NCBI GenBank assembly: GCA_905235625.1
Contig: CAJOLX010000010.1
Coordinates: 1-39,074 of the forward strand
From: an uncultured Clostridia bacterium
GTDB lineage: Bacteria; Bacillota; Clostridia; Oscillospirales; Acutalibacteraceae
Reading direction: 5' to 3'
Length of the DNA: 39,074 bases
Part shown: positions 3,595 through 32,055 of the stretch, one piece after another
How positions within the stretch are numbered: position 1 is the stretch's first letter
Layout of the letters: each line of letters starts with the position of its first letter
Notes under the pieces: model-generated
Seen by the model: only the letters and a program-made list of their open reading frames with translations
Database searches by the model: none
What the model was told of the DNA's origin: nothing
Made by a program: the position numbers and the translations under genes

Positions 3595-3623
3595 ATAATA
3601 CTATTTTAAAAGCATTTCGTCAA
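3595..3623 (-). promoter_or_regulatory. Sigma-A promoter for the HAD-mfd operon
   Basis: On the minus strand TTGACG (3623-3618) is followed after 17 nt by TATTAT (3600-3595). Transcription would begin near 3588. The leader contains TGCCCC and GGGGCA (about 3564-3539) that could pair into a hairpin upstream of the start codon. The assignment rests on consensus match and position only. Confidence 0.65.
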
Positions 3624-3641
3624 TGAAAATGTTAATTTTGC

Positions 3642-3670
3642 TTGATTACGCAACCCGCTGCTGATATAAT
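3642..3670 (+). promoter_or_regulatory. Sigma-A promoter for the tandem hydrolase genes
   Basis: TTGATT (3642-3647), a 17-nt spacer, then a perfect TATAAT (3665-3670). It diverges from the HAD-mfd promoter; the two -35 boxes are about 18 nt apart. The downstream start at 3721 has an AGAGGA ribosome site at 3707-3712. Confidence 0.75.
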
Positions 3671-3720
3671 ATATCTATTACAGAAAGATTTCAAAAGAAA
3701 GTCTTCAGAGGAAATATAAA

Positions 3721-5424
3721 ATGGATGAAAAAGGCTCCGTAAGTCCTCTCATAATACTGCCGGGCATAAACCATTCGCCCGTTTATCTTTACGGCGAAAA
3801 CGGCGAGCCCGTTAAAAATTCGCAAGGCAAAGACGTCGGCGGCACTCTGCTCATACCGGACGTTGACGCTCTTAAAGAGAAGCTGCCCGGGCTCATAAAA
3901 GCGATCGCGTTAAGCTCCGTTACGAGAAAGAGCGAAGAGGTTCGCGCGAGGGCTTACGAATGCGGCAAAGCTCTGTGCAGAGCGCAAAAATGCGGCAAAG
4001 ACGGCAATTTCGTAAATAATCTTAAAGTCAAAAGGTTTGAATATCCCATATCCGAAATGGATGAGGAAACCAAAAAATGGGCTTACGTTATGGTGCCCAT
4101 ACAGGGCTTAACAGAGCAGATAGGGGAGGAAAACGTGTTTTTCTTCACCTTCAATCTCGCGGGCGACCCTATGGAGTCCGCAAAGGAGCTTAAAGACTAC
4201 GTTGCGCTTGTAAAAGAAAAAACGGGCAGCGAAAAGGTCAGCTTTTTGCCGGTGAGCCTCGGCGGCACGATACTTACCGCCTACGCTTACCTTTACGGGC
4301 TTGAAGATATTGACCGCATAGTGAATATCGTAGCGTGCCTTGACGGCACTGATATCGTCGCGGATATTTTCGCGGGCGAATTTGACACCTCCGACCGCTT
4401 TTTAAGGCACGAGCTGCTGCCTGCCGTTATCAAAGAAGAAACGGGCAAGGCGCTGCCCGGATACGCCGCTAACATATTGCTTCACGCTCTGCCCGAAAAG
4501 GCGTTTACCGGAGCGCTTGACGGCTTTATCGGCGGAATGCTTGACGAGTTCATGCTTTACTGCCCGCAGTTCTGGGCTATGGTGCCGTCTTACAGATATG
4601 ACGCCCTTGCCGAAAAACGTCTTTCTTCGCCCGAGCTTAAAGAGCTCAAAAGCAAAACGGACGCTTTTCAGAAGGCGAGGCTTTCCCTCGGCGACACTCT
4701 GATAAAAGCGCAGAAAGACGGAGTTAAAATTGACTTTATAGCCGCCGGCGGGCTGAGCTTCGGCGATAAAGAATACGGCATTTTATCCGCCGTAAAATCA
4801 AAGAACGCTTACAGCACCGACGGAGTGGTAAATCTCTCTTCCGAAACTCTCGGAGCTTACGGCGCCCCCAAAGGGCAAAAGCTGCCGAAAGGATACAGGC
4901 AGGTCAGAGAATGCGCAGAAGAGCCCGGCTACAGCTACATTTCGCCCGACGGCTCAATTGACGCCTCGCGCGCCGCATTGCCCGACAACGTGTGGATTTT
5001 CTGCGGCCAGCATCACGAGGTGGGCAAAAACAGCGCCGTTTTAAACCTCGCCGCAGACATTTATTTAGGCAAGGTTAAAAACGTTCACTCGGACCCGCAG
5101 GGGCATCCGCAGTTTAACAATCCCGAAAACACCTATCATCTCAGGCGCTGGAGGCTTGCCGACGCAAAGCGCGCGCTCGAGGACGTATATTCGGGCAAAA
5201 TCAAGACTGCGCCGAGCGTGAAGGCGAGGCTTGAGCAATCGATCAAAGACGCCGAGAAGGTGCTCGAATCGAGAATAGCGGATGAATTTGAAGCGGAAAA
5301 GGTAAAAAGAGAAATTGACGACATACTTATCCGCCTCGGCAGAGCCGAAGCTCCCGCGAAAGAAAGCAAAGTAAAAAAGGCGATAGAAAAAGCCGCGGAA
5401 AAAATAAGCGAGGCAACGGTTTGA
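3721..5424 (+). CDS. Alpha/beta-hydrolase-like protein, cytoplasmic paralogue (function unknown)
   Basis: A 567-residue protein I place in the lipase/esterase-like alpha/beta-hydrolases (LCAT/PGAP1-like layout), without a confident family name. Near the N-terminus is LIILPGINHSPVYL, the usual strand-loop around an oxyanion hole. A nucleophile elbow FLPVSLGGT puts Ser179 in a variant PxSxGG context. The acid candidate is Asp367 in STDGVVNLSS and the His candidate is His432 in GQHHEVG. The last 100 residues are charged and helical. There is no signal peptide or membrane segment. AGAGGA sits 8 nt before the ATG. It is followed 49 nt later by a secreted paralogue sharing all these motifs. The triad is inferred by comparing the two paralogues, not from a solved family. 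Substrate is unknown; an acyl or peptide ester is only a guess. Confidence 0.72.
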   Translation: MDEKGSVSPLIILPGINHSPVYLYGENGEPVKNSQGKDVGGTLLIPDVDALKEKLPGLIKAIALSSVTRKSEEVRARAYECGKALCRAQKCGKDGNFVNNLKVKRFEYPISEMDEETKKWAYVMVPIQGLTEQIGEENVFFFTFNLAGDPMESAKELKDYVALVKEKTGSEKVSFLPVSLGGTILTAYAYLYGLEDIDRIVNIVACLDGTDIVADIFAGEFDTSDRFLRHELLPAVIKEETGKALPGYAANILLHALPEKAFTGALDGFIGGMLDEFMLYCPQFWAMVPSYRYDALAEKRLSSPELKELKSKTDAFQKARLSLGDTLIKAQKDGVKIDFIAAGGLSFGDKEYGILSAVKSKNAYSTDGVVNLSSETLGAYGAPKGQKLPKGYRQVRECAEEPGYSYISPDGSIDASRAALPDNVWIFCGQHHEVGKNSAVLNLAADIYLGKVKNVHSDPQGHPQFNNPENTYHLRRWRLADAKRALEDVYSGKIKTAPSVKARLEQSIKDAEKVLESRIADEFEAEKVKREIDDILIRLGRAEAPAKESKVKKAIEKAAEKISEATV

Positions 5425-5473
5425 GAATTTAAAGGCGATTTTTTATAAAAATCACAGAAAGGAAGAGTAAAAA

Positions 5474-7318
5474 ATGAAAAAGATTATTTCAATGCTTCTC
5501 GCGCTTTGTCTTGCGTTTGGCGCTTGCGTAATGGCGTTCGGAGCGGAGAGCGGGGTCAAAACGACCTGCGGCGGCGAAGGCGAGTGCGATTTCGTGCCCA
5601 CCATCGTCATTCCGGGCATAGGCCAGAGCAGAGTGTATCTCGTTGATGACAACGACGAATTCGTGCTCAACGACGGCAAAAAAATCAACTGCTTCCCTGC
5701 TTACGCAGATATCGGCAGCATAATCAAAAAGGCGCTTCTGCCCGCAATGTTTACGCTGCTGACTCAGCATGACGTCGGCCTTTCCAAAACGGCTTGCAGC
5801 ATTCTTGACGATTGCTTCTACATGAACGTTTGCGACAATGAAGGCAATCCCTCAAAATACGGCAAGCTCGAGGAGTATCCTTATTCGCTCGCAGAGTGCA
5901 GCGAAGAGGAGAAAGACGTTATCTACGGCAATATTCCTCTCAGAAATTACGGTGAAATAGTGGGAGAGGATCATCTTTATTATTTTGCTTACAATTCCTT
6001 CGGCAACAACATTCAGATAGTTGACAGGCTTTATGAATACATCGAGATGGTAAAAGCCGAAACGGGTCACGATAAGGTCAACATCGCGCCCATCAGCCTC
6101 GGCGGCACCATCGCAAACGGCCTGCTTGAGTATTACAGCGGCCGCTACGAAGGCAGACCCTGCGTTTACGAAAGCCTTAACAAGATAATATACATCGTGC
6201 CTGCGGTTGACGGCTCGTCAATAGTGGGCGACATCGCCACCGGCGACCTTGCTTTCCTTGACAGGGAATATCTCTACAACGGCTTCCTTGAGGGCCTCAT
6301 GGACGAAAAAGAGGCAAGGCAGATCGAAATTCTTCTGCGCATTCTGCCCGACGAGGTGCTCATGAAGGTGCTTAACGCCGCCGTTGACCACCTTATTGAA
6401 ACGGTTATCGCTCACTCCACCTGCATGTGGTCGCTCATACCGGGTGAAAATTATGAAGAGGCTACAGAAAAGTGGCTTTCAACGCCCGAAATGGCGAATT
6501 TAAAAGAGCAGGCGGATATGTACTATGCGGCTCAGACAAATCGCTTTGACAACCTTGCCGCCGCTCAGGCTGCGGGAGTTAAGGCATTCAACATAGTTGA
6601 CTACGGCGTTGCTCTTTACAACGTGGGCAGCTCGTGGAACAAGGAAAACGCGGACGGCGTTATAGACCTTGACTCCACCTCCATGGGCGCTTATTCGGCA
6701 AACGTGGGCGAAACTCTCCCCGAGGGCTACACTCAGGCAGGCACTAACTGCTCCGACCCCAATCACAATCACGTTTCCCCCGACAATGTTGTTGACGCTT
6801 CCACGTGCTTCATGCCCGATCACACCTTCTTCTTCGCAAATCAGGGCCACGAGCAGACCGCGAGAAACGACATCATAATGTCCCTCGCGACCGAGCTGCT
6901 CGCTTATGATAACATTACGGACGTTTATTCGGATGAGAACTATCCTCAGTTTAACGAAGGCAGAGACGCAAAAACTCTGCGCGGCTTGCTTGACACGGCG
7001 GCAGAGGTGGACAGAGCCTCCATTTCGGCAGAGCAGGCGGCAAAGCTTGACGCCGCGGTTGAAAACGCCGAAGACCTGCTCTCCACCACTATCGGCAACA
7101 CCGCCGCAACAAAGCAGGCTGAGAAGGATTTAAGAGCGGCGCTCGTTGAGCTCGGTTACGCAAGCCCCAAATCGGAGCCTCAGGACCCCGGATTCGCCGG
7201 CACGTTCAGCCTCTGGCTGCTTAAGAATTTCGGCACAAACGGCTTCTCGGAATATCCCGTTGTCGCCGTTAAAAACGTTTTCGCTTTCCTTCTTTCTCCC
7301 TTCAAAAAAGGGAACTGA
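5474..7318 (+). CDS. Secreted alpha/beta-hydrolase-like paralogue with a FIVAR-like C-terminal module
   Basis: A 614-residue protein with a typical Sec signal peptide: MKK, a hydrophobic run to about residue 22, and a probable cut after AFGA. The mature part repeats the architecture of its upstream neighbour: IVIPGIGQSRVYL near residue 44, nucleophile Ser208 in IAPISLGGT, acid candidate Asp394 in NADGVIDLDS, and His459 in NQGHEQT. Residues from about 505 to 560 form a helical stretch (LLDTAAEV, then AAVENAEDLL, then LRAALVELGY) that resembles FIVAR-type wall-associated repeats. A final hydrophobic and basic segment, VFAFLLSPFKKGN, could contact the membrane. No LPxTG anchor is visible. GGAAGAG precedes the ATG. 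It is likely co-transcribed with the upstream copy and ends at a strong terminator. The natural substrate is unknown. Confidence 0.74.
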   Translation: MKKIISMLLALCLAFGACVMAFGAESGVKTTCGGEGECDFVPTIVIPGIGQSRVYLVDDNDEFVLNDGKKINCFPAYADIGSIIKKALLPAMFTLLTQHDVGLSKTACSILDDCFYMNVCDNEGNPSKYGKLEEYPYSLAECSEEEKDVIYGNIPLRNYGEIVGEDHLYYFAYNSFGNNIQIVDRLYEYIEMVKAETGHDKVNIAPISLGGTIANGLLEYYSGRYEGRPCVYESLNKIIYIVPAVDGSSIVGDIATGDLAFLDREYLYNGFLEGLMDEKEARQIEILLRILPDEVLMKVLNAAVDHLIETVIAHSTCMWSLIPGENYEEATEKWLSTPEMANLKEQADMYYAAQTNRFDNLAAAQAAGVKAFNIVDYGVALYNVGSSWNKENADGVIDLDSTSMGAYSANVGETLPEGYTQAGTNCSDPNHNHVSPDNVVDASTCFMPDHTFFFANQGHEQTARNDIIMSLATELLAYDNITDVYSDENYPQFNEGRDAKTLRGLLDTAAEVDRASISAEQAAKLDAAVENAEDLLSTTIGNTAATKQAEKDLRAALVELGYASPKSEPQDPGFAGTFSLWLLKNFGTNGFSEYPVVAVKNVFAFLLSPFKKGN

Positions 7319-11781: not shown

Positions 11782-13215
11782 TTATTCCGCGGCCTCTTCC
11801 TCGGCATTTGAGGCGGTTTTTCTTTGCGCCTCAAGGTCATTGCGCATTATTTCAAGATTTTGTTTATTGAATTTGTAGAAGAAGCCGAGCAGCGCAAACA
11901 TTACGGCGAGCACGATTGCAGGCACGAGAGTGGAGGCGTCGTAAAGCCTTGTGAGCACGCCTTCGCCCTGATTGCCTATGGAGTTTACGTTGTAGCCGAT
12001 AATGCCGAGCAGAGCGGCTGAGCCAGAGCCCGCGAGAGTCTGACCGAGCTTTCTCATGAATGAGAATATCGAGTAGCAGGAGCCTTCTTCCTGCCTGCCG
12101 GTGCGAAGCTCGTGATAGTCGATAACGTCCATAACGAGCGCCCAAACTTCAAGCACAAGGAAGGTCTGACCTGCTCCGCTCAGAAGGCAGAGAGCGAGGA
12201 ACACGTAAGGATTTTCGCAAAGAGGGGTAAATCTGAGCAGGTACATGATAACGTTTATCACGCTCGAAAAAGCGAGGCCCGCGGCGCAGATTTCCTTTTT
12301 GCCGTATTTTCTTATGAGCTTGCCCATGAAGGGTATGAACACCGCCATGGGGAGGTAGGTGCATATCGTTACGAGAGAGAAAAGACCCGGCTTTTCAAAA
12401 TAATCCTTGAAAAGATAGTTGTAATAGGTCTGAGTGTACTGCTGAAACGCGATAAGAAGCATGGAGGCTATGCCGACCACCATGAATTCCTTGTTGGTGA
12501 TAAGGTTGCCGACGGTTTTGAAGATGTTGTATTTTTCGCCGGACTTTTTCTTCGTTACCACAACGCGCTCTTTCGTCATCTTGAAGTGGGCGAAATAAAC
12601 GACTATCGAGAGAGCGGCGACCGCGGCGACGGCGATGAAAAACTTGCGGGAATCAAGCACCTTGTTGCCTGCGTCATTTATCGAATAAACGAAAAGGGGC
12701 ATGAGAATCTGAGCGGGCAGACCGCCGAGACCCGCGCCTATCGAGCGCCACATTGAGAGAGAGGCGCGCTCAATCTCATCGTCCGTTATAACGCTTGCGA
12801 GCGAGCCGAAGGGGATGTTTACGCAGGTGTACATCATGCCGTAAAAAATGTAGGTGACGTAGGCGTAAACGAGATATTGAGCGGCTGTGAGACCGGGCAT
12901 CTTCGTAAACATCAAAACGCCCGCTATCGCAAGAGGAATTGAGAAGCCGAGGATGTAGGGGCGAAATCTGCCGTATTTGGTAGGCTTTCTCGAATCTATG
13001 AACGCTCCCCACATCGGGTCGTTGACAGCGTCCCAAATTCTCGCAACAAGCAGCAGCAGAGACGCCTGACCGGGGTTTATGCCGAGAACGTCGGTGTAAA
13101 ACATCAGCTGAAACGGCGTGATGATGCCGAAGGTGAGAAGACCCGCGGTGTCGCCGAGAGCGTAGCCGATCTTATCCTTCATTTTAATGCCGTGAGTAGA
13201 ATTGTTTTCCTGCAT
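11782..13215 (-). CDS. GPH-family sugar:cation symporter, probable sulfoquinovose/SQ-glycoside importer
   Basis: A 477-residue, 12-helix major facilitator of the glycoside-pentoside-hexuronide (MelB-like) family. Supporting motifs are IGYALGDTAGLLTFG near the N-terminus, the early loop YGRFRPYILG with its preceding RKPTK, and the late DVIDYHELRTGRQEEGSCYS typical of GPH proteins. E. coli YihO and YihP, from the sulfoquinovose locus, belong to the same family, and here the gene is the sixth of a sulfoglycolysis-type cassette. Import of sulfoquinovose or sulfoquinovosyl glycerol is therefore the likely role. GGAGAGG lies just before the ATG at 13215, which starts 18 nt after the TauE gene ends. 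The C-terminal tail is charged (EAQRKTASNAEEEAAE). Substrate is inferred from context only. Confidence 0.83.
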   Translation of the reverse strand: MQENNSTHGIKMKDKIGYALGDTAGLLTFGIITPFQLMFYTDVLGINPGQASLLLLVARIWDAVNDPMWGAFIDSRKPTKYGRFRPYILGFSIPLAIAGVLMFTKMPGLTAAQYLVYAYVTYIFYGMMYTCVNIPFGSLASVITDDEIERASLSMWRSIGAGLGGLPAQILMPLFVYSINDAGNKVLDSRKFFIAVAAVAALSIVVYFAHFKMTKERVVVTKKKSGEKYNIFKTVGNLITNKEFMVVGIASMLLIAFQQYTQTYYNYLFKDYFEKPGLFSLVTICTYLPMAVFIPFMGKLIRKYGKKEICAAGLAFSSVINVIMYLLRFTPLCENPYVFLALCLLSGAGQTFLVLEVWALVMDVIDYHELRTGRQEEGSCYSIFSFMRKLGQTLAGSGSAALLGIIGYNVNSIGNQGEGVLTRLYDASTLVPAIVLAVMFALLGFFYKFNKQNLEIMRNDLEAQRKTASNAEEEAAE

Positions 13216-13233
13216 TGAAACCTCTCCAGATTG

Positions 13234-13971
13234 TTATTTTGCCAAAAGAGATATTCCGCTTATAAGCATAAGCACATAAGTGAGTATTAAAAATACCTCT
13301 TTGTTTAATTTTTTGTAAATTATTTTGCCTATCAGCAGCGCCGCGGCAAGCACGGCGATTGATATAAGAGTGAGCCTTACGGTGGGCGGAGTAAAGTAGC
13401 CGGCGCGGTAATCCCACAAAGCTATGAGGCCGTTCAGCAGTATCCACGACGCCGAAACGGTTGAGCGAAATTCGTCCTTATCGGTCATTTTGCTCGATGC
13501 GTAGGTTACGAGCAATGGCCCGCCGCAAACGAAAATGCCGTGCACCGTGCCCGCGGAAACAAGCACGAACAAATTAACGACAGCAGGCAGCTTTTTGTCG
13601 TCCGTTTTGCGAAAATGTCTGACCGCGTTGTAAATCGCAAACAGTATGACCAAAACGCCGAGAATTCTGCATATGAGCGCCTCGTCATCGGAAAGGCTGA
13701 AATGCCTGTTTATCAAAACGCCGATTACCATGCCCGCGAGCATTCCGCCGAGCATTTTGGCAAGCTCTTTGTAATTAACTTGTTTGTAATTGGGCACCGC
13801 TATCGCGAAAGAAGCGGCAAGCCCTAAAACGTTCAGTATCGGCTTCGCTACGGCATATCCTACCGCCATTATGGAAAACGGCATGGCAAGCACCGTGCCC
13901 GCAAAGCCCGTGATGCACTGAACGACGTTTGACAGTAAAACTATTATCAGAAAGATGACCTGTCGATGCAT
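13234..13971 (-). CDS. TauE/SafE-family exporter, probable dihydroxypropanesulfonate export
   Basis: A 245-residue integral membrane protein with about 7-8 hydrophobic helices. The N-terminal CITGFAGTVLAMP and a second half repeating the pattern (VHGIFVCGGPLLVTYASSKM) are hallmarks of the TauE/SafE anion-exporter family, many of which move sulfonates or sulfite. Its ATG shares one base with the TGA of the isomerase gene (TGATG at 13973-13969), so translation is probably coupled. In a fermentative sulfoglycolysis pathway the C3 sulfonate end product must leave the cell, and TauE-family genes occur in described sulfo-TAL clusters. Direction and substrate are inferences from family and neighbourhood. 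Confidence 0.84.
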   Translation of the reverse strand: MHRQVIFLIIVLLSNVVQCITGFAGTVLAMPFSIMAVGYAVAKPILNVLGLAASFAIAVPNYKQVNYKELAKMLGGMLAGMVIGVLINRHFSLSDDEALICRILGVLVILFAIYNAVRHFRKTDDKKLPAVVNLFVLVSAGTVHGIFVCGGPLLVTYASSKMTDKDEFRSTVSASWILLNGLIALWDYRAGYFTPPTVRLTLISIAVLAAALLIGKIIYKKLNKEVFLILTYVLMLISGISLLAK

Positions 13972-15305
13972 CAGAATTCACATACCTCAATTCCGAGCAT
14001 ATTTGCGAAGCATTCGAGCTCCTTTGAAATATCGCCCATCGCAACGGCGAAGTGGGGCTCCCAGCCGTCTTTGACCGCCGAGGTGACAACGTCGTAGGCG
14101 CTCCTTTCGGTTTTTACCACCATTGAAGCGCCGTAAAACTGCTTTGGCTTGTCGAGCGCCTCGCCCTTTGCGATAAAGAGCCTGAACGAGCCGTCGCTTT
14201 CGCGGCCTATGCGCAAAACGGTGACCGCGGGCTCGGCTTTGCAGCCGAACTCAAGGGTGGGGCCTATCTTTCTGTTGCAGTGCACGCCTGCGCAGGCGCC
14301 GGTATCCTCTCTCGCAAGGGAGCAGGGCGCCATGCCGCAGTGCCAGAAGGTCACCGTGTTTTCGCTTTCATCGAGCGAAACGGGGTCGCCGAAGAACGCG
14401 CTCTTGCCCGTGAGAGAAGAGGCGATATACATTGACAGCGCGCCGTATGAATCCGCCTCGCACGCGGCGGGAATGCCCAGGTCGTTGAGTATGCCGAGCA
14501 CGGAGCAGACGGGCGTGCCGAAGGAAGTGAAGAAATCGGGCCAGCAGCGGCTCGCGAGAGCGCCTATGCCGTTGTCTTTAACGTATTCGTCATAAGCTCT
14601 GTAAAGCCTCGCGAAGTCAAGCACGTTTTTGCCGTCAATCGAGTCAAGCCCGGTTATTCTTTCTTTTGCGTCTTTGAGATATTCGGCGGCTTCTTCGTCG
14701 GAATAAGCCTTTGCTTTTTCTATCAGCTCTCTCGCCTCAATGCTCGTGAGGGTTACTCCGAAGGTTTTGAGCATATCCGCGTCAAGCGCTCTGCCGAAGC
14801 CGAAGCCCTGAGGGGTGTGACCCACTTGAAGGAGCTTTAAGCTCTTCATGCTCTTAATGAGCCTTGCGGAGCTTACGGCTGCCGAAATTTCTTTTATGAC
14901 CCGCTCTTCGTCGGGCGAGCCGAAAACGTATTCAAAGCTTCTGCCGCAGCTTCTCATGGCGTTCGCGGCGGAGAAAGCTCCCGTAAGGGAATTGAGGCGA
15001 AGCCTCGTGCCGTCGATGACGGGCTCTCTGAGAGTCCAGAGAATTACGGGGCAGTCAAAGCGCTTTATCACCTCAAAGACGTAGGCGGAGTTAGCGAAAG
15101 TGAGATTTTGCACTATCACCGCGTCGGGCGAAACGACGTCGAGATAATCCGACAGGCTGTCGACCGTTAAGAGCATATCGTCGGGCGCGGCAAAGCCGCC
15201 GTCAATATCTTTGAGCATTTTCACGCTCTCGTCAAAAAGCCTGCGGGCGCTTTCAAGGTGGAAGGTTCCCACACCTATGGGTACGTATACGGGGGTAAAG
15301 CTCAT
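13971..15305 (-). CDS. Fucose/arabinose-isomerase-like sugar isomerase, probable sulfoquinovose isomerase
   Basis: A 444-residue member of the L-fucose isomerase-like superfamily. The C-terminal half carries the family's metal-ligand pattern: Glu283 in CEADSYGALSMYI, Asp307 in FFGDPV and His322 in WHCGMAPCSLA. The N-terminal half holds alternating Rossmann-like strands (DAVIVQNLTF, CPVILWTLREP). In the cassette it would convert sulfoquinovose to 6-deoxy-6-sulfofructose, the substrate of the transaldolase. AGAGGA lies 9 nt before the ATG at 15305, 4 nt after the reductase stop. The superfamily assignment is firm. The substrate is inferred from neighbours; other sulfo- or deoxy-sugars are possible, and I cannot say from memory that all described sulfo-TAL isomerases share this fold. 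Confidence 0.82.
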   Translation of the reverse strand: MSFTPVYVPIGVGTFHLESARRLFDESVKMLKDIDGGFAAPDDMLLTVDSLSDYLDVVSPDAVIVQNLTFANSAYVFEVIKRFDCPVILWTLREPVIDGTRLRLNSLTGAFSAANAMRSCGRSFEYVFGSPDEERVIKEISAAVSSARLIKSMKSLKLLQVGHTPQGFGFGRALDADMLKTFGVTLTSIEARELIEKAKAYSDEEAAEYLKDAKERITGLDSIDGKNVLDFARLYRAYDEYVKDNGIGALASRCWPDFFTSFGTPVCSVLGILNDLGIPAACEADSYGALSMYIASSLTGKSAFFGDPVSLDESENTVTFWHCGMAPCSLAREDTGACAGVHCNRKIGPTLEFGCKAEPAVTVLRIGRESDGSFRLFIAKGEALDKPKQFYGASMVVKTERSAYDVVTSAVKDGWEPHFAVAMGDISKELECFANMLGIEVCEF

Positions 15306-15309
15306 CTTA

Positions 15310-16173
15310 TTATTCCTCTGTTCCGTTTACTAACATGTAAGTTGCGCGATAATCCATTTTGCCCATGCCGAGCTCCATGCCCTTGTCAAAAATCCTCTTC
15401 ACGTTGTTGAGGCCGGGCATATCGAAGCCCTGCTGCTCGCTGAGCTTTTTGGCGATGGTGACGTCTTTGTGCTCGTTTTCGAGCGAAAACGCCGTGGTCC
15501 AGTTTTTATTTTTGAGATTTTCTTTTTGCGATTCAAGATAGAAGTTGCCCGCTCCGCCGTAGGAAACGGCAGTGGCGAAATCATCGACTGAAATGCCGAG
15601 ACGGGTCGCGAGACCGAGCGTTTCGTTAACGGCGTTTTGAATTTCGGCAACGAGAGCGTTGTGGCAGATTTTCATCGTGATGCCCGTGCCGTTTTCGCCC
15701 ATTCTTATCACGTTGCAGCCCATGTATCTCACTATGGGCTCAATAACGGGGAAGAGCTCCTCGTCGCAGCCTACGAGAATGCCGAGAGTGCCGTCAATAG
15801 CGGCGGGCTTTGATTTAACGACGGGAGCGTCGGCAAACTGAGCGCCCTTCGCCTTTATCATCTGAGCCACCTCGAGCGAAACCGACGGGTCTATCGTGCT
15901 CATATCTATGCAAATCTTGCTGCTGTCAATGTAAGGCAAAAGCTCGGTGTAAACGCCCTTCACGTGCTCCGATTTCGGCACCATGGTGATTATGACGTCC
16001 GCGTTCTTTGCCACTTCAACGTTGTTTTCGCAGGGCACGGCGCCGAGCTGCGCAAGCTTCTCGACCTGAGCCTTGTTAAGGTCGGAAACGTAAACCTTGT
16101 CGTCATGCTTCTTAACGATGTTTGCGCTCATGCTCTCGCCCATTATGCCGAGGCCTATAAATCCTATTTTCAT
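15310..16173 (-). CDS. 3-Hydroxyisobutyrate-dehydrogenase-family reductase, probable sulfolactaldehyde reductase
   Basis: A 287-residue NAD(P)-dependent beta-hydroxyacid dehydrogenase. It has the dinucleotide motif GFIGLGIMGESM (residues 4-15), the substrate loop DAPVVKSKPAAIDGTL (115-130) and the catalytic Lys168 with Asn172 in GTGITMKICHN. The substrate loop usually reads DAPVSGG; here it carries Lys120 and Lys122. In E. coli YihU, the sulfolactaldehyde reductase of the same family, I recall PVGRTS at this site, with the Arg contacting the sulfonate. Lys120 aligns with that Arg. The predicted reaction is sulfolactaldehyde plus NADH to 2,3-dihydroxypropane-1-sulfonate. The gene lies 13 nt after the transaldolase and 4 nt before the isomerase. 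Family is certain; specificity is inferred from the loop and the cassette. Confidence 0.86.
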   Translation of the reverse strand: MKIGFIGLGIMGESMSANIVKKHDDKVYVSDLNKAQVEKLAQLGAVPCENNVEVAKNADVIITMVPKSEHVKGVYTELLPYIDSSKICIDMSTIDPSVSLEVAQMIKAKGAQFADAPVVKSKPAAIDGTLGILVGCDEELFPVIEPIVRYMGCNVIRMGENGTGITMKICHNALVAEIQNAVNETLGLATRLGISVDDFATAVSYGGAGNFYLESQKENLKNKNWTTAFSLENEHKDVTIAKKLSEQQGFDMPGLNNVKRIFDKGMELGMGKMDYRATYMLVNGTEE

Positions 16174-16186
16174 ATTCCGCTTCTCC

Positions 16187-16873
16187 TTACTCGGTTATCG
16201 TGTTGTCCCACGCTTTTGAAAATCTCTCGATGCCGTAATCCGTGAACGGATGATAGAAGCTGTCTTTAAACACCTGAAGACCGGCGGTCACGATGTCAGC
16301 TCCGGCAACGGCGCAGTCAACTATCTGTTTGCCGTTTCTGACGGCGGCGCAGATTATCTGAGTTTCGCCGAGATAGCCGTAATTCGCGTAAATCTCAACT
16401 ATATCGTTGATGTACTGCGCGCAGTCCTCGCCGCTGTTCTCTTTCCAGCCGATGAAGGGAGAAACGAAGAGAGAGCCGTTTTTGGCGGCTATGAGAGCCT
16501 GAGAAGCGGAAAAGACGAGGGTGAGATTCGTTCTTATGCCCTCTTGCTCAAGCCTGCGGGCGGCGGTAATGCCCGCCTCGGTGCAGGGGATTTTTATGAC
16601 GAAGTTTTTGCACATTGCGGATATTTTTTCAGCCATGGCGACCATTTCGTCGGGGTCGTCAAGGTGAGGATTTATCTCAACCGAAATCGGGAATACGTCC
16701 CAGCCCTCGATGCCTTTTTCTTTAACAAAATCCGCAAGCTCGCCGATTACGGTGTAAAACGGCTTGCCGCTGTTCATTATATGATTGGGGTTTGTGGTGA
16801 CGCCGTCGATGCCGAAGGTGTCATACGCTTCCCTTATCTCATCGATTTTTGCGCTGTCAAGAAAGTATTTCAT
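16187..16873 (-). CDS. TalC/FSA-type transaldolase, probable 6-deoxy-6-sulfofructose transaldolase
   Basis: A 228-residue single-domain (beta/alpha)8 class I aldolase of the small transaldolase/fructose-6-phosphate aldolase group. MKYFLDSAK at the N-terminus, GVTTNPNHI (24-32) and the Schiff-base Lys94 in FVIKIPCTEAG are diagnostic, as are RTNLTLVFSASQALIA and the C-terminal tail YGIERFSKAWD. In the sulfo-TAL pathway this enzyme moves a dihydroxyacetone unit from sulfofructose to glyceraldehyde-3-phosphate, giving fructose-6-phosphate and sulfolactaldehyde. The start overlaps the end of the GH31 gene by 17 nt, and its GGAGGAA ribosome site lies inside that gene, 8-9 nt from the ATG at 16873. 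Acting on a sulfosugar is inferred from the cassette; an ordinary transaldolase or FSA cannot be excluded by sequence alone. Confidence 0.85.
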   Translation of the reverse strand: MKYFLDSAKIDEIREAYDTFGIDGVTTNPNHIMNSGKPFYTVIGELADFVKEKGIEGWDVFPISVEINPHLDDPDEMVAMAEKISAMCKNFVIKIPCTEAGITAARRLEQEGIRTNLTLVFSASQALIAAKNGSLFVSPFIGWKENSGEDCAQYINDIVEIYANYGYLGETQIICAAVRNGKQIVDCAVAGADIVTAGLQVFKDSFYHPFTDYGIERFSKAWDNTITE

Positions 16874-18875
16874 TATAAAATTCCTCCGTTTTCTTAATTG
16901 TATCCAAAGCCTTTTTATCGGCGTTTTTCCTGTAAAATACCGGTATCGTGCCGAGCGGAGCGGAAACCTCGTATTCGCCGCCCGTATATTCTTCGCCCGT
17001 GCCGAGCCTTATCCACTCGTCCCCGGGCAGATAAACCTTTCGGCTTTTCGCGTTTCTTTCAAGCACGGGAGCTACGAGAATATCTCTGCCCAGAAGGTAT
17101 TCGCTGCTCTCGGTGTAAGCTCTTTCTTCATCGTAATAGAAGAAGAGCGGTCTTACCATGCCCACGCCCGTTTCGGAATTTTGAGCGGACAGGTCTTTGA
17201 GGTAAGGGGCGAGAGAAGCGTGAATGCGGCTCATCTTTGCCTGATGGAGCAGCGTTTTTTCGCTCGCGTCAAACTGAGCGTTCAAATCGGGATTGTTGCC
17301 CTCGTGGCTTCTCATAAGCGGGCTGAAGGCGTTCATTTCGCCCCAGCGCATAAAGAGCTCCTCGCTGCGGCGCAGTTTTTTGAAGGTGGTGTAGCCTCCC
17401 GTGTCGGAGTGGCTCACTCCGAAGCCGCTGCACGTGAGCGACAGCATGGCGGGTATTACCGAAGGCATGCCGTAATCTATCGAAAAGTCAACGTGATTGT
17501 CGCCGTTCCACATCAAGGTGGAATAAGCCGTAGTGCCGGTGAAGCCCGCTCTCGTGAAGAAGGTCACGTCGTTTAAAACGCCCGCTTCCTCGAGCGCCTC
17601 GCGGTTGAGCAGAGCCCAGCGCGCGGGCCAGGTGTTATGGGCAAGCTCAGCGCTTTCGCCCGAATACAGCACGGCGTCGGTAGGCAGATATTCGCCGAAA
17701 TCAGCCATCCAGCCCGAAAAGCCGAAATCAATCATATTCTTTTTGATAATGCCCTTGAGCCATTCGCGCGCCTCGGGGTTGGTTAAATCCACTATCGCGG
17801 CGGGGAAGGTGGTAATCGTTACCATATAGTCTTCGCCGTCTTTGTTTTTAACGCAGTAGCCCTTTTCTTTGGCAATTTGGTAGAGCGGTTTTTCTATGGC
17901 GAGGAAGGTGTTGCAGTAGCCCATTACCCTTATGTTGCTTTGCCTTAAGCGTTTTATGCTCTCGTCAAGCCCGGGGTAAAGCTCGCTGTCCCACTCCCAG
18001 TTCCATTGAAGCTGTTTGCCGAACGAGGTTATTCTGCGGCCCTCCCAGTCCTGTATCCAGGCTCCGGCAACCTTTGTGCCGCAGTCAAGGCAGCGGTTTA
18101 TTTTGCTCTCCATTATTTCGGTGCCGCCCTGTATGCCGAGAATAACTCCGCCGTAAACCCAATCGGGCAGGGGAGGCTGTCTGCCGATAAGCCCGGTGAG
18201 CCCCGAAAGCACCTGCTCAAAAGTATCGCCGAAGCCGACGTAGAAATCGGACACGCTGTCAAATTTAAGCGTGTGCCTGTCGCCGGCGGTAAAGTCAAAC
18301 TCGCTCCTCGCCGTCGTTTCGGAATGGAACCAGTATTTGCGGCTCGAAATGAAGGTCGGCTGAGCGTAGTAGGTTTCGTATTTTGAGTATTTTTCTTTCC
18401 TTTTCCCGTCTTTTATGCCGAGAGAGGTTTTTCTGATTTTTCTCGCGATGCAGCGCTCGTTTTCGTGCTCCGCGACCCAGTTGTCGGTTTTAACTCCTCT
18501 CAGGTCAAACTCACTGAAGGTTTCGCCCGTGCCGTAAACGTGCTCATCGGGCAGAGCGGGCAGAGTGACGATGAGCCTGTTGTATTCGTCAAGCTCTTCA
18601 AAATGAACCTTGAGCGTGTCGTCCGAAAGAGTGAGCACTGCTCTGCCCTTATCAAAAAGCAGAAGAGCGCCTTTATCGTAAACGGAAATCCGCTTTATTC
18701 TGAAGCAGTCCTCCGAGAAGGTTTTTTCCTTTATTTTGAAGCTCCCCTTGCGCATCTCATAGCTGTTTTCCGCCTTCCTGACGGTCACGGGATGCTCGCC
18801 GGGAGATATTGTGTGAATTACTTTTCCGTTTCTTACAAGCTTCAGCCTGTCATCTGTCATTTTAAAGGACAGCAA
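16857..18875 (-). CDS. GH31 glycosidase, YihQ-like sulfoquinovosidase homologue with an altered sulfonate pocket
   Basis: A 672-residue retaining alpha-glycosidase that closely tracks E. coli YihQ through the catalytic core. The nucleophile is Asp392 in GWMADFGEYLPTDAV and the acid/base is Asp459 in MWNGDNHVDFSIDYG, with HSDTGGYTT at 489-497 and RSHEGNNPD. Of the five YihQ sulfonate-pocket residues as I recall them (Q262, Q288, R301, W304, Y508), the equivalents here are Gln249, Gln275, Gln288, Trp291 and Tyr495, so only the Arg is replaced. The codon is a clear CAG. The TTG at 18875 is preferred because AGGGG lies 8 nt upstream; an in-frame ATG at 18860 lacks a ribosome site. There is no signal peptide, so it acts after import. 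It heads the six-gene cassette. Expected role: release of sulfoquinovose from its glycosides, with specificity uncertain. Confidence 0.88.
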   Translation of the reverse strand: MLSFKMTDDRLKLVRNGKVIHTISPGEHPVTVRKAENSYEMRKGSFKIKEKTFSEDCFRIKRISVYDKGALLLFDKGRAVLTLSDDTLKVHFEELDEYNRLIVTLPALPDEHVYGTGETFSEFDLRGVKTDNWVAEHENERCIARKIRKTSLGIKDGKRKEKYSKYETYYAQPTFISSRKYWFHSETTARSEFDFTAGDRHTLKFDSVSDFYVGFGDTFEQVLSGLTGLIGRQPPLPDWVYGGVILGIQGGTEIMESKINRCLDCGTKVAGAWIQDWEGRRITSFGKQLQWNWEWDSELYPGLDESIKRLRQSNIRVMGYCNTFLAIEKPLYQIAKEKGYCVKNKDGEDYMVTITTFPAAIVDLTNPEAREWLKGIIKKNMIDFGFSGWMADFGEYLPTDAVLYSGESAELAHNTWPARWALLNREALEEAGVLNDVTFFTRAGFTGTTAYSTLMWNGDNHVDFSIDYGMPSVIPAMLSLTCSGFGVSHSDTGGYTTFKKLRRSEELFMRWGEMNAFSPLMRSHEGNNPDLNAQFDASEKTLLHQAKMSRIHASLAPYLKDLSAQNSETGVGMVRPLFFYYDEERAYTESSEYLLGRDILVAPVLERNAKSRKVYLPGDEWIRLGTGEEYTGGEYEVSAPLGTIPVFYRKNADKKALDTIKKTEEFYNEILS

Positions 18876-18909: not shown

Positions 18910-18938
18910 ATAATAACAAAAATTTTTAAAAATATCAA
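18910..18938 (-). promoter_or_regulatory. Sigma-A promoter of the sulfosugar cassette with possible operator palindromes
   Basis: On the minus strand TTGATA (18938-18933), a 17-nt spacer, then TATTAT (18915-18910). The spacer contains the 12-bp palindrome ATTTTTAAAAAT. A GC palindrome CCGCGCGCGG (18940-18949) lies just upstream of the -35. Either could be a regulator site, but no regulator gene is nearby. The rest of the 18876-19055 gap holds GC-rich imperfect repeats (GCGCGG) and nothing coding that I can see. Confidence 0.65.
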
Positions 18939-19142: not shown

Positions 19143-20555
<1,413 letters not shown>

Positions 20556-20567
20556 TTAACCGCGGAT

Positions 20568-21149
20568 TTAATCTCCGTCGATAATTTCCTGAGCGACGAG
20601 AGCCTTTGAACGTCTTGAGTCCATGGCCTCTTTCTCAATGTATCTGTGAGCCTCCGGCTCGCTCATTCCCTTCTTTTCAACGAGAACGAATTTCGCCTTG
20701 CTCACGAGCTTTGTTTCGGCGAGCTTGTCCTGCAGCTTAGCAAGGCGCTTCTCTTCGTTAAGAAGCCTTGAGCTTGCGGCGCAGGCGAGCTTAACCGCTT
20801 TGTAGAGCTCGTCTTTGGTTATGGGCTTTGACACGGTCAAAACGCCGAAATCCTCAACCTTTTCGCACATCCTGTCATACATGTCGCTTTTGACCATGAG
20901 TATCACCGCTGTGTGCGAATTCTGAGTGGAATCGATTGCAAAGTCGGTTCCGAATTCATCCGGCAGGGGAGTGTCCACAAGTATCACGTCGTAAACGCAT
21001 TGAAGCAGCTTTCGCTTTGCCTCGCCCGCGCTTAACGCGGAGTCCACCTGACCGAGGGAAAAAGAGCCGAGCATCGCCGTGAGAAGCCCTGAGCTTTGCT
21101 GCTTGCCGCTCACGACAAGCAAGCTGAAGCTTCGTTTTCGGCTTGGCAT
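20568..21149 (-). CDS. ANTAR-domain RNA-binding antiterminator with a degenerate receiver
   Basis: A 193-residue protein with an N-terminal response-regulator-like domain (about 8-125) and a C-terminal ANTAR helical bundle (about 135-190: ETKLVSKAKFVLVEKKGMSE, then AHRYIEKEAMDSR). The receiver keeps Asp59 in VILVDTPLP and the Lys of VSKPITKDEL. It lacks the usual N-terminal acidic pair (LVVSGKQQ instead), so normal phosphorylation is doubtful. ANTAR proteins bind paired hexaloop hairpins in leader RNA and block terminators. In clostridia such a gene (NitR type) follows glutamine synthetase. Here it starts 21 nt after glnA with GGGAGG as ribosome site, and a candidate target lies in the glnA leader. 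I infer nitrogen-dependent antitermination. Confidence 0.9.
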   Translation of the reverse strand: MPSRKRSFSLLVVSGKQQSSGLLTAMLGSFSLGQVDSALSAGEAKRKLLQCVYDVILVDTPLPDEFGTDFAIDSTQNSHTAVILMVKSDMYDRMCEKVEDFGVLTVSKPITKDELYKAVKLACAASSRLLNEEKRLAKLQDKLAETKLVSKAKFVLVEKKGMSEPEAHRYIEKEAMDSRRSKALVAQEIIDGD

Positions 21150-21170
21150 ATATTTTCCTCCCTTCGGCTG

Positions 21171-22379
21171 TTACGCCTTACAGGAAGCGTATATGTCGAT
21201 AACTCTCTTCGGGATAACGCTTTTAACAAATTCGCTGCCGCCCGCGTTTTTCATCGCTTCGCCGAGCGAAAGCGGAAGAGTTTTGATGCCGTCAAAATCT
21301 TTGGGAACGGCTCTGAAGAGATTTGCGTTTGTCGGCGGGGGAGGGGTCATGCCCTTCTCTATGCCTTCTATGCCGGCGTAAATGAGCAGTGCGCAGGCGA
21401 GATAGGGGTTCGCCGTCGCGTCGGGGGAGCGCAGCTCCATCCTTCTGCTGCCTGCCGGTATTCTGATAAGCTGAGAGCGGTTTTGCTCCGACCAGGTGAT
21501 GAACTTGGGCGCTTTTTTGGAGCCGAGCCTGCGGTAGGATTCTTCGGTGGGGTTGAGAAACGCGGTTATTTCCGCAATCCTGTTAAGAATGCCCGCCATG
21601 AAAGGATCGAGGCAATCCTCGCCGCTTTTGCTCTCAACGGAAATATTCATGTGAAGCCCGCTTCCGCTTTCTTCGGGCAGGGGCTTGGGCGAAAAGTCCG
21701 CGTAAAGGCCGTATTGCTCCGCCATTGCGGACACGACCGACCTGAAGGTTACGGAATTGTCCGCCGCGCTCAAGGGGTCGCTGTATTTGAAATCTATCTC
21801 GTGCTGACCGGGGCCTTCCTCGTGATGCGAAGCTTCCGGCAGAATGCCCATTTCGCTCAGCGACAGGCAAATCTCTCTGCGAACGTTTACGCCTCTGTCA
21901 TCGGGAGCGATGTCCATATATCCGGCTCTGTCGTGAGGAATTTTGGTGGGGTAGCCCTCGTCGTCCGTTCTGAAAAGATAAAATTCGTGCTCCGGGCCGA
22001 AGCTTACGCTATAGCCTTTTTCGTCTGCGTAAGCGACCGCGTCCTTGAGAATTTTGCGGCAGTCGGCTTCAAACGGCGTGCCGTCGGGATAGCGTATGTC
22101 GCAATACATTCTCACCACCTTGCCCTGAGAAGGTCTCCAGGGAAGAACCGCGAGAGTGGAGGGGTCGGGGAAAAGGAAAAGATCGCTTTTTTCTTCGCTG
22201 CCGAAGCCTTTTATCGCGGAAGCGTCAAACGCTATACCGCTCTCGAAGGCTCTGTCAAGCTCGGAAATCATGATGGACACGTTTTTCTGCCTGCCGTAAA
22301 CGTCGCAAAAGGCAAGCCTGATAAAGGAAACGTCCTCTTGCTCGAGGCAGTCCTTCACTTCGGACACTGTGTAATTCAT
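21171..22379 (-). CDS. glnA: Glutamine synthetase, type I
   Basis: ATP-dependent amidation of glutamate to glutamine. From the ATG at 22379 the protein has 402 residues, somewhat shorter than the roughly 440 of GSI-alpha enzymes. This start is preferred because AAGGAG sits 10 nt upstream, the mapped promoter leaves a coherent leader, and the N-terminal beta-grasp reads MNYTVSEVKDCLEQEDVSFI. Catalytic marks are FGPEHEFYLF, EASHHEEGPGQHEIDF, GSGLHMNIS, NRSQLIRIPAG and RRMELRSPDATANPYLA. The Tyr adenylylation loop of proteobacterial enzymes is not recognisable. It is followed by the ANTAR gene and gdhA in the same direction and is controlled by a leader attenuator. Confidence 0.95.
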   Translation of the reverse strand: MNYTVSEVKDCLEQEDVSFIRLAFCDVYGRQKNVSIMISELDRAFESGIAFDASAIKGFGSEEKSDLFLFPDPSTLAVLPWRPSQGKVVRMYCDIRYPDGTPFEADCRKILKDAVAYADEKGYSVSFGPEHEFYLFRTDDEGYPTKIPHDRAGYMDIAPDDRGVNVRREICLSLSEMGILPEASHHEEGPGQHEIDFKYSDPLSAADNSVTFRSVVSAMAEQYGLYADFSPKPLPEESGSGLHMNISVESKSGEDCLDPFMAGILNRIAEITAFLNPTEESYRRLGSKKAPKFITWSEQNRSQLIRIPAGSRRMELRSPDATANPYLACALLIYAGIEGIEKGMTPPPPTNANLFRAVPKDFDGIKTLPLSLGEAMKNAGGSEFVKSVIPKRVIDIYASCKA

Positions 22380-22402
22380 AGCACTCAAGCTCCTTAAAAG
22401 AT

Positions 22403-22454
22403 AAAAAGCACCCATTGAGTGCCGTAATTTCGCAGCCAATGAACGCCTTTGTTC
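22403..22454 (-). promoter_or_regulatory. glnA leader attenuator: ANTAR-type hexaloop hairpin and terminator
   Basis: Read on the minus strand from the predicted start near 22454. Hairpin 1 is GAAC-AAAGGC-GTTC (22454-22441), whose six-base loop has A at position 1 and G at position 4, the published ANTAR target rule. It is followed by an intrinsic terminator, GCACTC-AAT-GGGTGC (22422-22408) plus TTTTT (22407-22403), just before the ribosome site. An alternative pairing of ATTG (22440-22437) with CAAT (22417-22414), enclosing GCTG/CGGC, would use up the terminator's 5' arm. A second small hairpin in this region has loop AAATTA, with A1 but not G4. The attenuator reading is inference. Confidence 0.72.
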
Positions 22455-22460
22455 TTTAGA

Positions 22461-22489
22461 ATTATATTATCTGCATTGAATTATGTCAA
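22461..22489 (-). promoter_or_regulatory. Consensus sigma-A promoter of glnA
   Basis: On the minus strand a perfect TTGACA (22489-22484), a 17-nt spacer, and a perfect TATAAT (22466-22461). Such a strong core promoter fits control after initiation, through the leader terminator, rather than by activation. The 22490-22601 stretch between this and the asnB promoter has several TTGCA/TTGTA words but nothing else I can name. Confidence 0.9.
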
Positions 22490-22601
22490 CTGTTTTTGCC
22501 TTCCTTTCGGGATATTCTGTCATTTGCACAAAAAACGGTTTATATTGCAGCGGGGGGTTGTAAAAATTGCAAAAATATGCCGAAAGCGGCGGGAATTGTT
22601 A

Positions 22602-22630
22602 TTGACAATGCATTATCGCTGTGCTAAAAT
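22602..22630 (+). promoter_or_regulatory. Sigma-A promoter of asnB
   Basis: TTGACA (22602-22607), a 17-nt spacer, TAAAAT (22625-22630). It diverges from the glnA promoter. The start of transcription is predicted at about 22637, only a few bases before a strong terminator hairpin. Confidence 0.85.
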
Positions 22631-22642
22631 TGCACGAGTAAA

Positions 22643-22682
22643 GGCAAGGGCGCCGGTTAACGGCTCCCTTGCCCTCTTTTTT
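22643..22682 (+). terminator. Promoter-proximal intrinsic terminator in the asnB leader
   Basis: GGCAAGGG (22643-22650) pairs perfectly with CCCTTGCC (22666-22673). An inner GCCG/CGGC stem closes the loop GTTAA, and a CTCTTTTTT tract follows (22675-22682). The hairpin lies between the asnB promoter and its ribosome site, AAAGGAGG (22687-22694). It therefore looks like an attenuator rather than the end of an upstream gene. No obvious antiterminator partner is visible in the very short leader 5' of it. Confidence 0.8.
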
Positions 22683-22701
22683 GCCGAAAGGAGGCATAAT
22701 C

Positions 22702-24279
22702 GTGTGCAGTTTGATAGGAACGCTGTCGGCTCCCGTCGATCTTGACAAATTCAAAGAAGCATTCAACAAAACCAAATCGAGAGGCCCCGACGACACCCGC
22801 GTGATAAGCGCAGGCACGGGTCTGCTCGGCTTTCATCGCCTCGCCATAATGGATCTTAATGATTCCGGAATGCAGCCTTTTGAGCTTGGTAAAAACAAGC
22901 TGGTTTGCAACGGCGAAATATACGGCTTCCGAAATTTGAAGAAGGAGCTCGAGAAGGAATATGAATTCACAAGCGATTCCGACTGCGAGATTCTGCTTCC
23001 CATGTATGAAAAATACGGCGTTGATATGTTTGCAAAGCTTGACGCCGAATACGCTCTCGTTATTTACGACGGCGAAAAGCAAAAGCTCATAGCCGCGAGA
23101 GACCCCATAGGCATAAGACCTCTGTTTTACGGCTACGACGAAAACGGCGGGATTATATTCGCGAGCGAAGCGAAAAACCTCGTGGGCCTTTGCAAAAAGG
23201 TAATTCCTTTTCCGCCCGGGCATTACTATGACGGCGAAAAATTCGTTTGTTACAGGGATATGACCGCAACCGACACCGTCGTTTCCGGCTCGCTTGACGA
23301 AATATGCAAAAACATTCATGACAAGCTGACCGCGGGCATCGAAAAGAGGCTCGACGCGGACGCTCCGCTCGGCTTTCTGCTCAGCGGCGGGCTTGACAGC
23401 TCCCTTGTGTGCGCCGTGTCGGCAAAGCTGCTCGGCAAGCCCATAAAGACCTTCGCGATAGGCATGGACGAAGACGCCATTGACCTTAAATACGCAAGGC
23501 AGGTGGCGGATTACATAGGCAGCGAACACCGCGAAATCATAATCACCGGTCAGGACGCGATAAACGCCGTTGAAGAGGTCATAGCCGCTCTCGGCACGTT
23601 TGACATCACAACGGTCAGAGCGAGCATAGGCATGTATCTCATCTGCAAAGCAATTCACGAAACCACCGACGTTCGCGTGCTTTTGACGGGCGAAATTTCC
23701 GACGAGCTTTTCGGCTACAAATACACCGATTTCGCGCCCGACGCCGAGAGCTTTCAGCAGGAGGCGTGCAAGAGAGTCAGAGAGCTCTATATGTACGACG
23801 TGCTCAGAGCCGACCGCTGCATTTCCGTAAATTCCATGGAGGCGAGAGTTCCGTTCGGCGACCTCGATTTTGTGCAGTACGTCATGTCGATAGACCCCGA
23901 GCTCAAGATGAACAAATACGGCAAGGGCAAATATCTGCTCAGGCGCGCCTTTGAGGGCGACTATCTGCCCGAGAGCATTCTCATGAGAGAAAAAGCGGCG
24001 TTTTCCGACGCCGTGGGCCATTCGATGGTCGATTACGTCAAGGAATTCGCCGAGAGCGTTTACACCGATGAGGAGTTTGCCGAAAAGAAGGCAAAATACA
24101 CTCACGCGGCGCCGTTCACAAAGGAATCTCTGCTCTACAGGGAAATATTCGAAAAATATTATCCGGGGCAGGGAGAGATGATAAAAGATTTCTGGATGCC
24201 AAACAAGGATTGGGAGGGGTGCAACGTAAACGACCCCTCCGCGAGGGTATTGTCAAACTACGGAGACAGCGGAAAATAA
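22702..24279 (+). CDS. asnB: Asparagine synthetase, glutamine-hydrolysing
   Basis: Makes asparagine from aspartate, ATP and glutamine. I place the start at the GTG at 22702. It leaves Cys as residue 2, the required N-terminal nucleophile of class II amidotransferases (M-CSLIGTLS), and AAAGGAGG lies 7 nt upstream. A start at 22669 would bury that Cys and lie inside the leader terminator. The product is 525 residues. The glutaminase domain (about 2-190) has LLGFHRLAIMDL and ARDPIGIRPLFYG. The synthetase domain has the pyrophosphate loop LSGGLDSSL at 227-235 and the later ARVPFGDLDFVQYVM. It is followed 24 nt later by pyrG, another glutamine-dependent enzyme. Confidence 0.94.
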   Translation: MCSLIGTLSAPVDLDKFKEAFNKTKSRGPDDTRVISAGTGLLGFHRLAIMDLNDSGMQPFELGKNKLVCNGEIYGFRNLKKELEKEYEFTSDSDCEILLPMYEKYGVDMFAKLDAEYALVIYDGEKQKLIAARDPIGIRPLFYGYDENGGIIFASEAKNLVGLCKKVIPFPPGHYYDGEKFVCYRDMTATDTVVSGSLDEICKNIHDKLTAGIEKRLDADAPLGFLLSGGLDSSLVCAVSAKLLGKPIKTFAIGMDEDAIDLKYARQVADYIGSEHREIIITGQDAINAVEEVIAALGTFDITTVRASIGMYLICKAIHETTDVRVLLTGEISDELFGYKYTDFAPDAESFQQEACKRVRELYMYDVLRADRCISVNSMEARVPFGDLDFVQYVMSIDPELKMNKYGKGKYLLRRAFEGDYLPESILMREKAAFSDAVGHSMVDYVKEFAESVYTDEEFAEKKAKYTHAAPFTKESLLYREIFEKYYPGQGEMIKDFWMPNKDWEGCNVNDPSARVLSNYGDSGK

Positions 24280-25911
<1,632 letters not shown>

Positions 25912-29672: not shown

Positions 29673-29675
29673 CCC

Positions 29676-32052: not shown

Positions 32053-32055
32053 CAT

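Follow-up and report, generated by a model that had tools for sequence, protein, structure and literature searches.

Does a compact set of six genes in the genome of an uncultured Clostridia bacterium (Oscillospirales, Acutalibacteraceae; assembly GCA_905235625.1) encode the degradation of sulfoquinovose (SQ), and by which route? The DNA analyzed, hereafter the window, is a stretch of 39,074 nucleotides (nt; CAJOLX010000010.1), and is contig 10 of a 2.06-Mb genome in 93 contigs. The genes lie head to tail on the minus strand at 11782-18875, in the transcription order GH31 glycosidase, transaldolase SftT, reductase SlaR, isomerase SftI, TauE/SafE protein and GPH symporter, with spacings of -17, +13, +4, -1 and +18 nt. 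An earlier, sequence-only reading had described a six-gene, single-direction cassette with gaps from -17 to +18 nt, and its coordinates, strand and spacings were confirmed. Taken together, the six genes very probably form a complete reductive cassette of the sulfoglycolytic transaldolase type (sulfo-TAL, or sulfo-SFT), a variant endowed with a sulfoquinovosidase (SQase) of a Gln301 clade and devoid of SftX.

The transaldolase-type route, already proposed in that reading, is supported by the sulfofructose (SF)-transaldolase, by an isomerase of the SftI type and by the distribution of the genes in relatives. Families were called by Pfam; NCBIfam agrees, in part below its curated cut-offs. SftT scores 304.2 bits against the SF-transaldolase of Bacillus megaterium (BmSF-TAL, 8bc3), nearly double the score against the next PDB transaldolase, that of Thermotoga maritima (161.5 bits), and 81.9 bits against FSA. 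The residues highlighted in BmSF-TAL are D6, E61, K89, N111, S133 and a sulfonate-orienting W-A-R motif, numbered for W138 only (PMC11659671). Their equivalents in the window protein are D6, E66, K94, N116, S138, W143, A177 and R179, the placement of A177 and R179 being our own reading of the alignment columns. Of the 105 matched loci, a number in which some genomes recur, 93 hold the full set of eight residues, 11 break off ahead of at least one of them, and in one a stop is read at the final position. Trp replaces an Arg of FSA and ordinary transaldolases which we take to bind phosphate. The enzyme is an SF transaldolase featuring both the sulfonate W-A-R motif and the Schiff-base lysine, Lys94; bit scores and W-A-R residues rule out that it is an ordinary FSA or transaldolase. 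The catalytic D/E/K, the sugar-contacting N/S and the sulfonate W-A-R residues are the same as in BmSF-TAL, from which the window protein differs by Asn in place of Arg30 and by insertions, five residues spread over two gaps near 48-58 and a further two near 168.

SftT is the sole TAL_FSA match in the window genome. PF00923 (TAL/FSA) has one match in each of the 23 genomes of the genus which carry the cassette, none in the other 22, and is found in 10 of 14 control genomes. Since the gene is restricted to cassette genomes, SftT is not a housekeeping pentose-phosphate enzyme in this genus. SftI, SftT and the SQase reside in the same 23 of 45 genomes, and none of them in the remaining 22, many of these genomes being incomplete metagenome-assembled genomes (MAGs; 63-100% complete). 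Thresholds were > 200 bits for SftI, E <= 1e-10 for SftT and E <= 1e-100 for the SQase; an SftI paralogue of 50 bits only, in genome G037, was not counted. Outside the genus SftI is sparse (8 of 250 family, 3 of 245 order and 19 of 398 phylum sample genomes, each count including the window's own genome), and the best hit in a plasmid search was 32.8% identical, among the matches listed (15 of 24 records).

Of 92 distinct loci in relatives, 16 share the order SQase-SftT-SlaR-SftI-TauE-GPH with the window and 20 show SQase-SftT-SlaR-SftX-SftI-TauE-ROK-GPH; the other 56 differ, or are cut by contig ends. Because the same order recurs in relative loci, the arrangement is more than chance. The sequence-only reading had suggested a new variant of composition and order. 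The order is not new; what makes the cassette a variant is the Gln301-type SQase together with the lack of SftX, two features that had gone unnamed there. An exchange of transaldolase for transketolase within the genus was considered for genomes G007, G008, G016, G038 and G040, which seemed to lack SftT, and was discarded, SftT and the SQase lying together on another contig. In two of these (G008 and G007; loci L181 and L182) the cassette is split: one contig holds SQase-SftT and, after them, an MFS-like gene, another holds SftI-TauE-GPH, and no SlaR match lies beside SftT. SQase-SftX-SftI triads occur in seven further loci (L098, L104, L111, L112, L118, L127 and L129), and the stretch covered there gave no match to SftT or SlaR. 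In locus L041, a Peptidase_S51-family gene (12574-13275) sits between SftT and the SQase.

The glycosidase had been called YihQ-like, and is so by score: it reaches 757.7 bits with the YihQ model PRK10426, whose cut-off is 553, against 212.6 bits with the next family, and is 43% identical to Escherichia coli YihQ (5aed) over 673 columns. Asp392 is the nucleophile and Asp459 the acid/base (D405 and D472 in YihQ). SftI has the AraI/FucI fold and a conserved metal-type E/D/H triad, present in 145 of 146 matched loci, the remaining one being cut off; by sequence, it has no match at E <= 0.01 among solved structures. The TauE/SafE assignment denotes family membership only, and no NCBIfam match was obtained for this protein; the GPH symporter is 28% identical to YihO and 29% to YihP.

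The substrates, direction of the reactions, cofactor, product and export that follow are predictions made from sequence. The GPH symporter would import sulfoquinovosyl glycerol or SQ, the GH31 enzyme would free SQ from the glycoside, and SftI would convert SQ to 6-deoxy-6-sulfofructose. Forming a Schiff base at Lys94, SftT would transfer the dihydroxyacetone part to glyceraldehyde-3-phosphate, yielding fructose-6-phosphate and 3-sulfolactaldehyde. SlaR would reduce the latter to dihydroxypropanesulfonate (DHPS), renewing NAD+, and the TauE protein would export DHPS. The organism would in this manner ferment SQ, release DHPS, and may engage in cross-feeding.

Several observations weigh against this assignment, its weak points being the cut-off for the isomerase and the scores of the reductase. 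SftI scores 402.5 bits, the NCBIfam equivalog cut-off being 700; every other SftI match falls far short of that cut-off as well, whether in the sample of the genus, the family, the order or the phylum.

SlaR carries PF03446 and PF14833, the domains given for sulfo-SFT clusters in PMC11968277. Set against four E. coli enzymes it scores higher with GarR (148 bits) and GlxR (125) than with YihU (119), YgbJ coming last (64); NCBIfam gives 191.8 bits for a GarR-type reductase and 145.2 for sulfolactaldehyde reductase, both below cut-off. The description of this protein as YihU-like finds no particular backing in these figures. A tree with 26 cassette reductases, chosen from 112 close loci, unites them in a clade of their own (100/99); YihU is its neighbor, at 91/46 and on long branches, so that tree and scores disagree on the nearest relative. 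That transaldolase and reductase might group with ordinary FSA and hydroxyisobutyrate enzymes, an eventuality raised in the sequence-only reading, fails for the transaldolase, and has a mixed outcome for the reductase, the scores favoring the GarR type, the tree placing the cassette clade, weakly, beside YihU. SlaR has the motif APVVKSKP, with PVVKS where GarR, GlxR and YgbJ have PVSGG and YihU has PVGRT. The Lys is found in 110 of the 112 close loci, the other two being unread there; a basic residue at this motif in both SlaR and YihU would fit a sulfonate substrate.

SftX (DUF4867, PF16161) is absent from the window genome; of the 23 genomes of the genus with a cassette, just 3 have a match exceeding the cut-off, and many loci of other genera have the gene. 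SftX is described as conserved in the sulfo-SFT pathway, with no activity found and its role open, and as possibly not essential, an argument drawn from sulfo-EMP and sulfo-transketolase (sulfo-TK) clusters lacking it (PMC11968277). A link between the loss of SftX and the Gln301 SQase was ruled out, many loci of other genera having both. In a rumen microcosm supplied with SQ, isethionate was formed and DHPS not detected, according to PMC13219744. Lastly, the window SQase lacks two arginines, Arg301 and Arg541 in YihQ numbering (used below for the SQases), the latter present in 25 of 25 sequences of the Arg301 type.

E. coli YihQ carries Q262, Q288, R301, W304, D405, D472 and Y508, which presumably act jointly in SQ recognition and catalysis (the QQRWY signature). 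Arg301, which we take to bind the sulfonate and to be the hallmark of sulfonate recognition, is replaced in the window protein by Gln (Gln288 in its own numbering). Compared with YihQ and with SftG of Eubacterium rectale, the window enzyme keeps Q262, Q288, W304, D405, D472, Y508 and H537, and features the changes R301Q, D341E, E369T, G373A, Q473N and R541N. Arg301 is present in the four solved YihQ-family enzymes aligned (8r56, 5aed, 6pnr and 5ohy; a further chain, 5ohs, is listed without alignment). At this position, 61 of the sequences first compared (74 distinct full-length ones and YihQ) have Gln, and the other 14 have Arg. Sixty of the 61 Gln sequences, the window SQase included, make up one clade (SH-aLRT 100), recovered again at 100/100 in a careful tree from which the trait columns had been removed and in which the clade had been thinned to 20 rows. 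Gln-type loci of the clade were retrieved via SftI or from genomes of the genus having SftI and SftT, many with SftT adjacent, so that recovery is biased towards SQ loci. Within the genus, residue 301 is Gln in 18 of the 23 cassette genomes, Arg in 3, His in one partial protein (G023), and not readable in one.

Thirteen SQase sequences were added (12 of plasmid origin, the other on a contig of a viral collection), and one was dropped for wrong frame. Outside the 60-member clade, 25 of 27 sequences have Arg301 and two Gln301 (L174 and L184). All 25 Arg types have Asp341, Gln473, Arg541 and an acid at 369 (24 Glu, 1 Asp). In the clade, Glu341, Thr369 and Ala373 are found in 60 of 60 sequences, Asn473 and Asn541 in 59 each. 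L174, from a genome of another class and nested among Arg types, has Gln301, Glu341, Ala369 and Ala373, and keeps Gln473 and Arg541. This locus, for which 3 and 4 genomes of relatives were sampled in two attempts, holds SftI, open reading frames (ORFs) resembling an ABC transporter by eye and, on the opposite strand, a class II aldolase (PF01116); it may be a sulfo-EMP2 locus. L184 combines Gln301 with Arg341 and Ala369, and its branch is 3.4 changes per site long; its gene (2773-5028 of a viral-collection contig, small ORFs around) encodes a YihQ-like GH31 protein of 751 aa with an N-terminal hydrophobic stretch by eye. Residues 301, 341 and 369 change jointly in two well supported places, perhaps three. 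At least two changes occurred at 301, and an independent-pair test yielded two pairs (p 0.5), too few for significance. The change may have run from Arg to Gln or from Gln to Arg; given this polarity and the long branch of L184, three independent origins of Gln301 are not claimed. A Lys or Arg compensating for Arg301 was also considered: six positions of the clade gain one, which might do so if located in the pocket.

These changes lend themselves to the alternative which survives best, and which we nevertheless deem unlikely, namely that the cassette serves a substrate akin to, yet distinct from, the one proposed, the Gln301 enzyme preferring another sulfosugar glycoside or aglycone (for instance lyso- or intact sulfoquinovosyl diacylglycerol over SQ-glycerol) and the later enzymes following. 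In the 25 Arg types 108 columns are invariant; four of these (D341E, Q473N, R541N and 301 itself, there by definition since the groups were split on it) carry another, nearly fixed residue in the sequences with Gln. The distant L174 again shows the changes at 301, 341, 369 and 373. Against this alternative, SftT retains the W-A-R sulfonate motif, and Q262, Q288, W304 and Y508 are intact in all 60 sequences of the clade, a signature not strict among Arg types themselves (K/E at 262/288 in 10 of 25, Y304/F508 in 1 of 25). Moreover, in three genomes of the same genus (G015, G025 and G028) the only YihQ-family gene found is of the Arg type, on a contig other than that of SftT, and the SftT locus is of the same kind as in Gln-type genomes. 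Because of this pairing, the two SQase types seem interchangeable in the genus.

The Gln301 clade may be a second functional type of GH31 sulfoquinovosidase, which we advance as a tentative idea, somewhat less probable than not. Such enzymes would dispense with the conserved arginine in recognizing the sulfonate, residues 341 and 369 having changed too, would have arisen or been kept in at least two lineages, would be a major type in rumen and gut Clostridia, and may differ in the preferred SQ glycoside. In the open-access literature searched, no report of a Gln variant at position 301 of YihQ was found.

A route of the transketolase type, or a bifurcated one, like those of Faecalicatena and Caproiciproducens and with the isomerase in common, is far less probable still. 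Such pathways have been published (PMC11659671 and PMC13219744), and one genome of the same family (L043, 2799-10530) has a sulfo-TK-like locus, in which a split transketolase, an iron-dependent alcohol dehydrogenase (Fe-ADH), SftX, TauE and an Arg-type SQase surround SftI. The window cassette, instead, includes a candidate sulfolactaldehyde reductase, and among the 30 window proteins scanned there is no transketolase, ribose-5-phosphate-isomerase-B-type protein or Fe-ADH, a scan which left out some window ORFs and did not extend to transketolases in the rest of the genome. An ordinary sugar operon, in which an alpha-glucosidase, an FSA-type aldolase and a hydroxyisobutyrate-type reductase would handle unsulfonated sugars, finds some room in the generic Pfam names and in the GarR-leaning reductase, and is hardly credible in view of the near-double SftT score for SF-transaldolase, the Trp in place of the FSA/TAL Arg, and the distance between the YihQ model and the next family for the GH31 protein.

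The cassette is of an ordinary kind; its entry enzyme and the absence of SftX make it a variant. The sulfo-TAL pathway has been published for Priestia, Agathobacter rectalis and others (PMC12890257, PMC8397734), and its four core genes were reported in 23 human-gut species clusters of Lachnospiraceae and Ruminococcaceae (PMC8397734). SQase, SftI, SftT, a candidate sulfolactaldehyde reductase and a putative exporter are shared with the reductive cluster known from gut Firmicutes such as Agathobacter (Eubacterium) rectale; unlike it, the window has no SftX, and its SQase is of the Gln301 type, Arg being found in E. rectale SftG (6pnr). Many relatives have an internal ROK-type regulator gene, which the window cassette lacks. 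The nearest named loci (best 80 of at least 521) are from MAGs, many of them from rumen or other animal gut, labeled Clostridia, Ruminococcaceae, Oscillospiraceae and similar. With the rumen sulfo-TK bacteria (Caproiciproducens, Ca. Limivicinus) the window shares the kind of habitat of many of its named relatives, and related entry enzymes, and differs from them by a transaldolase and a reductase in place of transketolase, and by DHPS as the predicted product in place of isethionate (PMC13219744). According to the same paper, yihQ richness is high, Ca. Limivicinus has several yihQ clades, and a sulfo-TK route leads to isethionate; the yihQ amplicon used (positions 1201-1526) would miss codon 301, if numbered as in E. 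coli.

Coordinates are collected in Table 1. The single promoter claimed for the cassette is backed in part: a promoter-like site matching 10 of 12 consensus positions lies 34 nt ahead of the start codon, and similar numbers of such sites are found in shuffled sequences (11 in the region vs. 7.3, sd 2.6), so that taken alone it is weak evidence. A hairpin with a T-run at 19079-19063, 3' of gdhA, separates the cassette from this upstream gene; terminator-like sites number 17 in the region vs. 14.9 (sd 4.1) in shuffles. Downstream, pheA begins 30 nt from the cassette, may be cotranscribed with it, and leaves the cassette with an uncertain 3' end; the 3' hairpin (-18.5 kcal/mol, z -2.4) has no clear T-run.

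Table 1. Position of the cassette genes and of the promoter-like site in the window.
Feature	Position	Strand	Basis
GH31 sulfoquinovosidase homologue (SftG/YihQ type)	16857..18875	-	TTG start; PRK10426 757.7 bits; YihQ 5aed 611.6 bits
SftT, SF-transaldolase	16187..16873	-	BmSF-TAL 8bc3 304.2 bits; key residues
SlaR (SftR role), beta-HAD reductase, putative sulfolactaldehyde reductase	15310..16173	-	PF03446+PF14833, tree, motif
SftI, putative sulfoquinovose isomerase of fucose/arabinose isomerase fold	13971..15305	-	
TauE/SafE exporter, putative DHPS exporter (SftE role)	13234..13971	-	PF01925 77.1 bits
GPH-family symporter, putative importer of SQ or SQ-glycerol	11782..13215	-	TIGR00792 306.8 bits
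Promoter-like site TTGATA-17-TATTAT	18910..18938	-	consensus match only

Other window regions were annotated in passing. A nitrogen block lies beside the cassette (19143-25911), with NADP-glutamate dehydrogenase, an ANTAR response regulator, an asparagine synthase-like protein, CTP synthase and a glutamine synthetase of 422 aa scoring under curated cut-offs. A teichoic-acid-type cluster (28971-37246) includes glycosyltransferases, an ABC-2 transporter pair, a pair of IspD-like and zinc-dependent alcohol dehydrogenase-like proteins, and two proteins of the CDP-glycerol glycerophosphotransferase family. Three long ORFs at 1119-7318 (440, 567 and 614 aa) have no Pfam match at E <= 0.001.

In this genus a transaldolase is found only alongside SQ genes, and most sulfo-TAL members lack SftX, which indicates that sulfo-TAL gene sets can occur without it. 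The cassette predicts DHPS-forming fermenters of SQ in ruminants, where the rumen study found isethionate. The 60 distinct sequences devoid of Arg301, having SftI in the same locus or genome, make the requirements for sulfonate recognition directly testable, and the Gln301 clade would warn against annotating, or excluding, sulfoquinovosidases on the basis of residue 301.

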